Below, piece after piece: positions 36,894-40,249 of a stretch of DNA of 45,444 nt. Each line of letters opens with the position of its first letter. The first letter of the stretch is position 1. The position numbers were made by a program, and so were the translations under genes. The notes under the pieces were generated by a model, which saw nothing but the letters and a program-made list of their open reading frames with translations, ran no database searches and had not been told where the DNA came from. The DNA lies in contig JAAYLR010000111.1 of NCBI GenBank assembly GCA_012521815.1, forward strand, positions 1 to 45,444, written 5' to 3'. This stretch comes from Acidobacteriota bacterium. GTDB taxonomy: Bacteria; Acidobacteriota; Thermoanaerobaculia; Multivoradales; JAGPDF01.

Positions 36894-36922
36894 TTGACGG
36901 CGGCCTTTTCTGAACATATGCT
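36894..36922 (+). promoter_or_regulatory. Promoter of the DUF134-radical SAM-NifX operon
   Basis: TTGACG (36894-36899; five of six to TTGACA), a 17-nt spacer and TATGCT (36917-36922; four of six) form the best promoter in the window. Transcription would begin near 36929, 54 nt before the DUF134 ATG. A 20-bp inverted repeat overlaps the -10. Confidence 0.65.
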
Positions 36923-36927
36923 CAGAA
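36908..36927. promoter_or_regulatory. Inverted repeat overlapping the -10, probable DUF134 operator
   Basis: TTCTGAACATATGCTCAGAA is a 20-bp palindrome centred on CATATG with nine of ten pairs matching; only the A36914/C36921 pair fails. It covers the -10 hexamer and extends to the likely transcription start, an arrangement suited to repression. The regulator encoded just downstream is the obvious candidate to bind it; that is inference. Confidence 0.6.
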
Positions 36928-36982
36928 CATCGGGCGCTCCGGACGTCGGATACCCCCGGACAATCGCATCGAAACCATCCGC

Positions 36983-37396
36983 ATGGCCCGCCCTCCGCAC
37001 CCGCGCCGCATCGCCCTCTCCTGTCCGGGAGCCGGCTTTCGGCCGCTTGACCGGCCCGTGCGCGGGACCCCGGTCCTCACCCTCGGCCTCGACGGGCTCG
37101 AGGCGCTGCGCCTCGCCGATCTCGAAGGGCTCTACCAGGAGGCCGCGGCGGAGCGGATGGGGGTCTCGCGCCCGACCTTCGCCCGCGTCCTCACCCGCGC
37201 CCGCGCGGTGGTCGCCGAAGCGCTCGTGGAGGGGAAGGTGCTCGTGATCGGGGCGGTGCCCTCGCGCCCGGGGGCGGACGAACCGCTCCCCTGCCCGCTC
37301 CACGGGGGCGAACGCCGGCGCGGCCGGGCCTGCCGTTGCGGGAGGCTCGATACGCCCTGCGATCCGGGGCCGGAGGGCCCCGAGGAGATCTCATGA
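36983..37396 (+). CDS. DUF134 (UPF0251) family predicted DNA-binding regulator
   Basis: 137-residue protein with the DUF134 pattern: ARPPHPRRIALSCPG start, LTLGLDGLEALRLADLEGL, then a sigma70-region-4-like helix-turn-helix QEAAAERMGVSRPTFARVL at about residues 52-70. The C-terminus holds several cysteines (CPLHGG, then CRCGRLDTPC), suggesting a metal or Fe-S site that could sense the cofactor. The family is commonly found beside NifX/NifB-like metal-cofactor proteins, as here. It is the first gene of the operon, behind a promoter with an overlapping palindrome, and overlaps the radical SAM gene by 4 nt (ATGA). Confidence 0.87.
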   Translation: MARPPHPRRIALSCPGAGFRPLDRPVRGTPVLTLGLDGLEALRLADLEGLYQEAAAERMGVSRPTFARVLTRARAVVAEALVEGKVLVIGAVPSRPGADEPLPCPLHGGERRRGRACRCGRLDTPCDPGPEGPEEIS

Positions 37397-38385
37397 CCAC
37401 GCGCAAGCTCCGGGACCGCTCACCCGGCGGCCACGTCTACGGCCCGGTGCCGAGCCGCCGGTTCGGCGCCAGCCTCGGCGTCGACGCGGTGCCGTACAAG
37501 ATCTGCTCGTTCGACTGTACCTACTGCCAGCTCGGTCCCACCGGCACCCTGACGGCCCGGCGGCGGCGGTTCTACCCGGTCGAGACGATCCTCGCCGAGG
37601 TCGCGGCGCGGCTCGCCGACGGCCCCGCGCCCGACGTCATCACCCTCGCCGGCTCCGGCGAGCCGACGCTCGACAGCGGGCTCGGCGAGCTCATCGCCGG
37701 CCTGAAGCGGCTCGCGGCGGTGCCGGTGGTGCTGCTGACCAACGGCTCGCTCTTCCACCGCCCGGCGGTGCGCGCCGCGGCGGCGAAGGCCGACATCGTG
37801 GTCCCGAGCCTCGACGCCGGCGACGAGGCGACCTTCCAGGCCGTCAACCGGCCGGCCCCGGGTCTGACGCTCGCCCGCGTCGTGGCCGGTCTCGAGGCGT
37901 TCCGCGCCTCTTTCCAGGGGCGTCTCTGGCTCGAGGTGATGGTGATGGACGGCGTCAACGACAGCCCGGAGCAGCTCGCCCGGATCGCCGTCCTCGCCCG
38001 CCGGATCGGCGCCGAGAAGGTCCAGCTCAACACCCCGGTGCGCCCGACGTTCGACGAGCGGGCGCGGCCGCTGAGCGCCGAACGCCTCGCCGCCTGCTGC
38101 GCCCATTTCGATCCGCCCGCCGAGCCGATCGCCGACTTCCGCGCCCGGGGCCCCGGCGCGGAGCCGCTCACGGCCGCCGACGACGAGCGGGTGCTCGCGC
38201 TGCTCGGCCGCCGCCCCTGCACGCTCGACGATCTCGCCGCCGGCCTGCAGCTCCACCCGGCCGAGGTGGGCAAGGCGCTCGGCCGCCTCGAGCGGGCGGG
38301 CGCGATCGCCGGCCACCAGCGCGGCGGCCGCCGCTACTGGATCGCCACACGCGGCGACCAGCCACCTTCCGAGAGGGGCCTTTGA
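37393..38385 (+). CDS. Radical SAM protein (COG0731-like) with C-terminal winged-helix-like domain
   Basis: 330-residue radical SAM enzyme. The start YGPVPSRRFGASLGVDAVP, the cluster-binding CSFDCTYCQLG (CxxxCxxC) and LAGSGEPTLDSGLGELI are characteristic of the COG0731 Fe-S oxidoreductases that accompany DUF134 and NifX-like genes; the reaction is unknown. The last 60 residues (DDERVLALLGRRPCTLDDLAAGL, in two parts) look like a winged helix (LHPAEVGKALGRLERAGAI), which could bind nucleic acid or be an interaction domain. GAGGAG precedes the ATG, which overlaps the DUF134 stop. The NifX-like gene follows after 88 nt. Confidence 0.88.
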   Translation: MTTRKLRDRSPGGHVYGPVPSRRFGASLGVDAVPYKICSFDCTYCQLGPTGTLTARRRRFYPVETILAEVAARLADGPAPDVITLAGSGEPTLDSGLGELIAGLKRLAAVPVVLLTNGSLFHRPAVRAAAAKADIVVPSLDAGDEATFQAVNRPAPGLTLARVVAGLEAFRASFQGRLWLEVMVMDGVNDSPEQLARIAVLARRIGAEKVQLNTPVRPTFDERARPLSAERLAACCAHFDPPAEPIADFRARGPGAEPLTAADDERVLALLGRRPCTLDDLAAGLQLHPAEVGKALGRLERAGAIAGHQRGGRRYWIATRGDQPPSERGL

Positions 38386-38473
38386 ACCCTCTCGTCAACC
38401 CCATCCGGCGGCTGCCGGGCGCGCGGACGCTCCCGGGCTGCCGGCCTTTCTCGACCCCAAGGAGTCACACCCC

Positions 38474-38896
38474 ATGAAGAAGATCGCCGTTCCGCTCGCC
38501 GCCGGCGCGTTCTCCTCCCACTTCGGAGGCGCCGACGCTTTCGCTTTCTTCACCGCCGAGGAGGGCAGCGAGGAGATCACCTCGGCCGCCATCGTGGCCG
38601 CTCCCCCGCACGAACACGGCGCCTTCCCGCGCTGGCTCTCCGAGCAGGGGATCTGCGCGGTGCTCGCCGGCGGGATGGGGCAGCGCGCGAGCGCCATCCT
38701 CACCGCCGCGGGCATCGACGTGGTGCTCGGCCTCGAAGGGGGAGATCCGGAGGTCATGGCCCGCGACTACCTGGCCGGCCGGCTCACCTCGAAGGGCTCG
38801 CTCTGCAGCGGAGGCCATGGCGTCGGCTGCGGCGGCCACGATCACGATCACGGCCACCATCATCACCACCACCATCATCACCGGCACGGCGAATGA
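38474..38896 (+). CDS. NifX/NafY-type cofactor-binding protein with Cys/His-rich metal tail
   Basis: 140-residue protein of the dinitrogenase iron-molybdenum cofactor biosynthesis family (NifX/NifB C-terminal/MTH1175 type), which carries metal-sulfur clusters. The domain (residues 1-105) opens KKIAVPLAAGAFSSHFGGADAF and includes LAGGMGQRA. A metal-binding tail follows: CSGGHGVGCGG, then 13 histidines including a run of nine. The tail could chelate nickel, zinc or other divalent metal, uncommon for this family. AAGGAG lies 9 nt before the ATG. It is the last gene of the DUF134 operon and converges on yjjX-hypB-hypA. Confidence 0.87.
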   Translation: MKKIAVPLAAGAFSSHFGGADAFAFFTAEEGSEEITSAAIVAAPPHEHGAFPRWLSEQGICAVLAGGMGQRASAILTAAGIDVVLGLEGGDPEVMARDYLAGRLTSKGSLCSGGHGVGCGGHDHDHGHHHHHHHHHRHGE

Positions 38897-39508: not shown

Positions 39509-40249
39509 TCAGCCGGAGTGATCGTGATGATGATGATGGTGATGCCGCTTGCCGGTCGCCGGCGGCAGCTCGGCCCGGCGCGCGGCGATCCAGGCATACC
39601 ACTCGTCGAGCCCCTCGCCCGTCACCGCCGAGCAGCGCACCAGACGGGGCACCGGCATCGTCGCCGCGAGCGCGGCCTCGAGCGCCTCCATCCGGTAACC
39701 GGGCAGGTGCGGCAGGAGATCGCACTTGGTCAGCAGCACGAGGTCGGCCTTGCGAAAGATCACCGGGTACTTCAGCGGCTTGTCCTCGCCCTCGGTGACC
39801 GAGAGCGCCACCACGCTCGCCTGCTGCCCGAGGTCGTAGATCGCGGGGCAGACGAGGTTGCCGACGTTCTCGACGAAGAGGGTGTCGACCCCCTCCCAGG
39901 CGAGCTCGTGGAGCGCCTCGTGGACCAGCCGTGCGTCGAGGTGGCAGGCCGAGCCGGTGGTGATCGTCGCCGCCGGGATCCCGGCCGCCCGCAGCCGCTC
40001 GCCGTCGTTGTCGGTGGCGAGGTCGCCGGAGAGCGCGCCGAGCCGGTGTCCGGCGAGCGCGCGCGCCGTCGCCTCGAGGAGGGCGGTCTTGCCCGAGCCG
40101 GGCGAGCCCATCAGGTTGATCGCGAGCACCCCGCGCTCGCCGAAATGCTCGCGGTTGTGCTGCGCCATCCGGTCGTTGCTGGCGAGCAGGCTCTCGTGAA
40201 GCTCGACGGAGACCAGATCCGGATCGCCGCAGCCACAGGTTTCACACAT
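39509..40249 (-). CDS. hypB: HypB, nickel-binding GTPase for hydrogenase maturation
   Basis: GTPase that delivers nickel to the hydrogenase large subunit with HypA. The 246 residues show the N-terminal MCETCGCGD (CxxCGC, high-affinity nickel site as in E. coli), the P-loop GSPGSGKT at 48-55, the metal-site GSACHLDARLVHEAL, the VENVGNLVCPA motif and TKCDLL. A poly-His stretch, seven His then D-H, sits at the very C-terminus. In Bradyrhizobium and other long HypB proteins the nickel-storing His region is N-terminal, so the placement is unusual. The ATG lies within the end of hypA (8-nt overlap). Confidence 0.96.
   Translation of the reverse strand: MCETCGCGDPDLVSVELHESLLASNDRMAQHNREHFGERGVLAINLMGSPGSGKTALLEATARALAGHRLGALSGDLATDNDGERLRAAGIPAATITTGSACHLDARLVHEALHELAWEGVDTLFVENVGNLVCPAIYDLGQQASVVALSVTEGEDKPLKYPVIFRKADLVLLTKCDLLPHLPGYRMEALEAALAATMPVPRLVRCSAVTGEGLDEWYAWIAARRAELPPATGKRHHHHHHHDHSG

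Follow-up and report, generated by a model that had tools for sequence, protein, structure and literature searches.

DUF134 proteins occur in many bacteria and archaea and, to our knowledge, have no known function. In the window, the 45,444-nucleotide stretch of DNA analyzed here (contig C37 of a 2.95-Mb source genome in 243 contigs), a DUF134 gene opens an operon that also encodes a radical SAM enzyme and a NifX-like protein. The locus raises two questions, namely whether the DUF134 protein controls these genes through the palindrome that lies over their promoter, and what chemistry the encoded proteins serve.

Genes and Promoter of the Operon

The operon is made up of the following features.

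36894–36899, plus strand: −35 element TTGACG (promoter search; a TTGACA-like element also lies 5′ of the operator in relatives)
36908–36927, plus strand: candidate DUF134 operator, the palindrome TTCTGAACATATGCTCAGAA (unique core, conservation, and helix-site covariation)
36917–36922, plus strand: −10 element TATGCT, inside the operator
36983–37396, plus strand: DUF134 (UPF0251) regulator (PF02001, structure model, alignment)
37393–38385, plus strand: radical SAM enzyme with a C-terminal winged helix (PF04055, PF17782, structure model, relatives)
38474–38896, plus strand: ORP-type NifX-like carrier (PF02579, ORP half of MrpORP, alignment)

The three genes are co-directional, and each of the identities given in the initial annotation is matched by a family profile. 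The DUF134 protein matches PF02001 with an E-value of 1.5e-17 (64.4 bits against a curated cut-off of 27), the radical SAM enzyme matches PF04055 at 1.1e-17, and the NifX-like protein matches PF02579 at 8.8e-16 (58.4 bits against a curated cut-off of 26.3). The winged-helix-like tail noted for the radical SAM enzyme is a DprA_WH-like winged helix (PF17782, 8.5e-9). The reading frames of the first two genes share an ATGA overlap, while a gap of 88 bp separates the radical SAM gene from the NifX gene, which has AAGGAG 5′ of its ATG. Genes for a DUF84 NTPase, HypB, and HypA lie 3′ of the operon in convergent orientation. A link to hypA and hypB was rejected, as they are convergent neighbors only and a comparison of 55 relative loci, made for the suggested co-occurrence, found no hyp genes at any of them. 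HypB (39509–40249, minus strand) has a His-rich C-terminal tail, HHHHHHHDHSG, and in this resembles the NifX-like protein, whose gene is close by on the opposite strand.

The promoter is of the sigma-70 type, with TTGACG, a 17-bp spacer, and TATGCT agreeing with the consensus at 9 of 12 positions. This promoter-like pair is the sole match in 4 kb (shuffles, 0.0 ± 0.2). The earlier description of a near-consensus promoter thus stands for the promoter as a whole and is generous for the −10 element, where 4 of 6 positions are matched. The 20-bp palindrome is as described: it is centered on a perfect CATATG, has 9 of its 10 pairs matched, and covers TATGCT. When the CATATG core is counted, none of 5000 dinucleotide-shuffled versions of the 330-bp upstream region equaled it; a bare 9/10 palindrome, with the core ignored, arises in ~5% of shuffles. 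Its 14-bp core, TGARCATATGYTCA, has a single exact match in the 2.95-Mb genome, at DUF134, and one further, weak site appears when two mismatches are allowed.

Conservation of the Palindrome

The palindrome recurs beside DUF134 genes of other genomes. A CATATG-centered palindrome with a score of at least 13 lies upstream of 53 of 76 distinct DUF134 genes (bacteria and one archaeon), drawn from the phylum of the window and, for other phyla, from named genomes; in about 30% of the genes examined, no clear palindrome is seen close to the start. Of 58 upstream regions taken from this DUF134 set, 37 attain the score, as against 6 of 1160 shuffled ones. A search for the exact core across 297 genomes of the phylum found it in 16 of the 47 that have DUF134 and in 7 of the 250 that do not (p = 1.5e-9), and a backward-read control pattern had 0 matches in the same 297 genomes.

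All 17 exact sites in genomes with DUF134 adjoin DUF134 (13 genomes), NifX (L176 and L183), or DUF5320 (L179). Chance was rejected as the source of the extra sites, given that every exact site in these genomes has one of these three genes beside it. A second palindrome in L232, a relative in the class of the window, precedes a CGGC-domain gene. Where DUF134 is lacking, three exact sites lie before ArsR genes and one beside a NifX-MinD locus, and those in L180, L181, and L197 have no such neighbor; for G064, the survey covered one of two sites.

A near-identical palindrome, CTGAGCATATGCTCAG, is found near base 1501 of L190–L192, upstream of ArsR-family genes in genomes without DUF134, where it is apparently a convergent operator. 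The sequence of the palindrome therefore cannot by itself name its binder. This is why we retain, as an improbable alternative, that a regulator other than DUF134, for example an ArsR/SmtB-type metal sensor, uses the palindrome as its operator, with DUF134 a co-regulated passenger. The core TGAGCATATGCTCA does stand upstream of ArsR-family genes where DUF134 is missing, one of which, in L191, is followed by a FeoB-like gene. However, no ArsR gene adjoins the window operon, and the one exact site in this genome is at DUF134. A separate binder would also not explain the covariation described below.

Recognition Helix and Mode of Control

The helix-turn-helix of DUF134 is sigma-region-4/DeoR-like, with the recognition helix SRPTFARVL. 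Across relatives, the helix is paired with the half-site of the palindrome: SRxTxxR goes with TGR, SRGTVQR with TGT, and SRQTxGN with xTRG. Half-sites are concordant with the helix in 93 of 106 cases, where the best of 100000 permutations reached 73. Since the permutation test ignores kinship, a DUF134 tree was built with the helix masked. On this tree there are 5 changes of helix class and 5 of site class, and the two classes agree in 54 of 54 genes, agreement meaning at least one matching half-site per gene. Because the tree is short and its resolution weak, it is uncertain how many of the changes are independent, yet the masked tree still implies several.

The comparative evidence that DUF134 binds the palindrome is therefore strong, and it extends to the autoregulation put forward in the initial annotation. 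This rests on the conservation of the site, its overlap with the promoter, its covariation with the helix, and the presence of other copies before NifX, DUF5320, and CGGC genes. In relatives, TTGACA-like elements have preferred distances of 14–15, 21, and 37 bp before the start of CATATG, and the operator often overlaps the core promoter at the spacer, the −10 element, or the start region. A protein bound there would be in the position of a repressor, and from this we infer that DUF134 represses its own operon.

DUF134 could instead bind the site and activate in the manner of a sigma factor. In structure, the DUF134 model comes closest to sigma region 4 domains and to the DNA-binding domain of DeoR, both at weak E-values. 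Activation is nevertheless a poor prospect, given that the operator lies over the −10 element, spacer, or start region rather than 5′ of the −35 element, and that DUF134 has no sigma region 2.

The signal may be read from the C-terminus. The Cys-rich tail noted earlier for DUF134 is present, as is the Cys/His tail of the NifX-like protein. The DUF134 tail ends in CPLHGG-RRRGRACRC, and the alignment shows an ending of the CPxHGG-x-RRRGRxCxC type to be common to this protein and its nearest relatives; other DUF134 branches have zinc-ribbon-like CxxC pairs or only short Cys motifs. Such Cys/His-type motifs make it plausible that the tail senses a metal or cluster.

The NifX-Like Carrier

The NifX-like protein is best placed with the ORP proteins. 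It matches the ORP half of MrpORP at 1.2e-26, covering only positions 265–365 of the MrpORP model NF041136, and is thus a stand-alone ORP domain lacking the Mrp/NBP35 ATPase fusion. Nor does it sit in an ORP complex of the Desulfovibrio type, as the MinD-type Fe-S ATPases of this genome are outside the operon, on contig C205. An alignment of 12 sequences has the invariant residues H16-F17-G18, P44, H46, G67-M68-G69, and C111. In Azotobacter vinelandii, NifX binds NifB-co through H35 (PMC13128457), which would be equivalent to H16 of the window protein. In the ORP chain of D. gigas, an arginine occupies the position of the HFG histidine, so this histidine is not essential for an ORP to hold a cluster. 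Nitrogenase NifX proteins are found with nif cofactor genes, and this genome lacks nifB.

The tail of the carrier, CSGGHGVGCGGHDHDHGHHHHHHHHH, is rich in Cys and His. Tails of this type (CSGGH..CG.H) are also present in L067, L069, and L078, and ORP-type copies elsewhere end in CDH. At most loci examined (such as L101, L113, and L135), MrpORP and ORP-type NifX have this Cys-Asp-His C-terminus, a possible metal-binding end. The Gly-rich cationic tail of IssA is absent from the window carrier. The NifX proteins of L124, L153, and L158, which are encoded in MinD-radical SAM clusters, have GGMGMGRGMG tails like those of IssA/IssX, which suggests that these copies are thioferrate-type storage partners.

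The Radical SAM Enzyme

The enzyme belongs to the radical SAM superfamily, with a YGPVPSRR...CxxxCxxC motif and a radical SAM barrel modeled well (pLDDT 84). The CxxxCxxC cysteines are invariant or nearly so in 50 homologues. A fold search with the model scored PFL-AE, viperin, and NifB alike and did not narrow the function.

The likeness to NifB, together with a carrier from the family of the NifB-co-binding NifX, raises the prospect that the enzyme is a NifB analogue making a carbide cluster for the NifX-like protein to carry. This we regard as very improbable, as PFL-AE and viperin match the fold as well as NifB or better. Beyond CxxxCxxC, the only conserved cysteine is C276, in 35 of the 50 homologues, and auxiliary cysteines such as NifB has for two further [4Fe-4S] clusters are not conserved among them. 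With these cysteines missing and no nifB found in the genome, a NifB-like enzyme was rejected.

Gene Order in Relatives

The radical SAM family is widespread in bacteria and occurs in some archaea. At 33 of 80 loci, a MinD-type ATPase with 4Fe-4S motifs and NifX are both nearby, and at 43 of the 80 there is at least one of MinD, NifX, DUF5320, and DUF134; the 37 without expected neighbors are partly due to contig ends. The gene is elsewhere flanked by two MinD-type Fe-S ATPases, with ORP/NifX genes, and L061 has the order DUF134-DUF5320-rubrerythrin-NifX-MinD-radical SAM-MinD-NifX. Further recurrent neighbors encode NifU_N, zinc ribbon, ARMT1-like, and metallo-beta-lactamase proteins. The ARMT1-like (DUF89) and metallo-beta-lactamase genes beside the radical SAM gene (L125, L107, L149, and others) may hint at its substrate.

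Closer relatives carry a longer version of the window operon. In three members of the same class (L232, L233, and L248), the order is DUF134-DUF5320 (or DUF5320-like)-radical SAM-ArsP_2-NifX, where ArsP_2 is a putative heavy-metal exporter with ten transmembrane segments. L084, from the wider phylum, has DUF302 in the second position (DUF134-DUF302-radical SAM-ArsP_2-NifX), L234 has DUF134-radical SAM-ArsP_2, and in L037, L049, and L086 the exporter gene is directly 3′ of DUF134 and its site. The window enzyme groups with the radical SAM proteins of ArsP_2 operons (clade support 0.989). Given that gene order and this grouping, the window operon is most likely a reduced copy from which DUF5320 and the exporter have been lost. 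Retention of the operon is patchy, since the radical SAM gene is absent from all 7 sampled genomes of the genus and family of the window. The set is therefore not self-contained, as had been supposed: relatives add DUF5320 and ArsP_2, and this genome encodes a second NifX and two MinD ATPases elsewhere, in a NifX-MinD-MinD locus on contig C205.

The exporter also invites an arsenic or organoarsenic reading, in which an arsenical is converted by the radical SAM enzyme and then leaves the cell through ArsP_2, with NifX as an accessory thiol carrier. The transporter of relatives scores above the NCBIfam arsenic_eff cut-off, and the ArsP_2-linked clade includes the window enzyme. Set against this, the arsenic label is that of the family only, many radical SAM relatives sit with MinD and ORP genes instead, and a search of this genome, run without a positive control, found no ArsP_2. 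An arsenic system is accordingly unlikely.

Proposed Mechanism and Significance

On balance, comparison of sequences makes it probable that the genes in the window are a reduced version of a metal-handling operon under DUF134 control, with DUF134 repressing at the palindrome. DUF134, presumably as a dimer, would bind the CATATG-centered site through its helix-turn-helix and, because the operator covers the −10 element, block RNA polymerase. The signal detected by its CxxH...CxC module is probably a metal, a cluster, or redox state, and occupancy of the module would alter DNA binding. Derepression would yield the radical SAM enzyme and the ORP-type carrier. The carrier most likely holds a metal-sulfur unit by His16 of HFG, with Cys111 and the His-rich tail collecting or releasing metal, and it may work with the NifX-MinD-MinD Fe-S ATPases of contig C205. 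The radical SAM enzyme would modify a small molecule or a pathway protein needed for the cargo, as opposed to building clusters in the manner of NifB. In relatives the gene set is completed by ArsP_2, which suggests that the operon serves the homeostasis or detoxification of a soft metal or metalloid under sulfide-rich anoxic conditions.

With ORP/NifX, MinD Fe-S ATPases, NifU, and DUF5320 as partners, the most likely role of the operon is a metal- or sulfide-responsive handling of metal-sulfur species. A broader proposal, offered tentatively, is that DUF134 proteins might be widespread repressors that sense a metal or cluster and choose their operators by a readable helix-to-operator code. 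The pathway under their control, with a radical SAM enzyme, an ORP carrier, and an exporter, would produce a dedicated heterometal-sulfur species outside nitrogenase, or dispose of it.

These assignments give DUF134 a candidate DNA site, a specificity code, and a putative regulon (itself, NifX, DUF5320, CGGC, and NifX-MinD), so that its role is directly testable. They also connect an orphan radical SAM family with the metal-sulfur machinery of ORP and MinD proteins, to which one clade adds a putative heavy-metal exporter. The question of what cargo ORP and MrpORP carry may become more tractable through this link.

Comparison with Known Systems

The initial annotation regarded the system as undescribed. 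The ORP/MinD/MrpORP side is known from Desulfovibrio, whereas the open-licence literature searched gave no description of an operator, regulon, or radical SAM partner for DUF134/UPF0251. The Desulfovibrio ORP complex and MrpORP (orp1/orp2) resemble the window in having an ORP/NifX-type protein and MinD-type Fe-S ATPases, and have been tied to Fe-S biogenesis in anaerobes (PMC6345978). The regulator gene of the orp operons is likewise self-controlled (PMC3897727). Those operons use the sigma-54 regulator DVU2106, in contrast to DUF134 and a sigma-70 type promoter in the window, and unlike orp1/orp2, the window operon includes a radical SAM gene and has its ATPases on another contig.

Nitrogenase cofactor synthesis by NifB and NifX also pairs a radical SAM enzyme with a NifX-fold carrier. 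The window differs in having neither auxiliary cluster cysteines nor a genomic nifB, and its carrier is closer to ORP/MrpORP. The thioferrate storage protein IssA (PMC5524996) shares the NifX-fold domain, and several NifX proteins of related loci share its Gly-rich tail, where the window carrier has a Cys/His tail instead. The ArsR/SmtB metal-sensor operons are similar in regulatory design, with a small helix-turn-helix sensor, a palindrome over its own promoter, and a site similar to TGARCATATGYTCA, and the transporter in related operons adds to the likeness. DUF134 is, however, a different family, with a helix-turn-helix of the sigma-4/DeoR-like kind.
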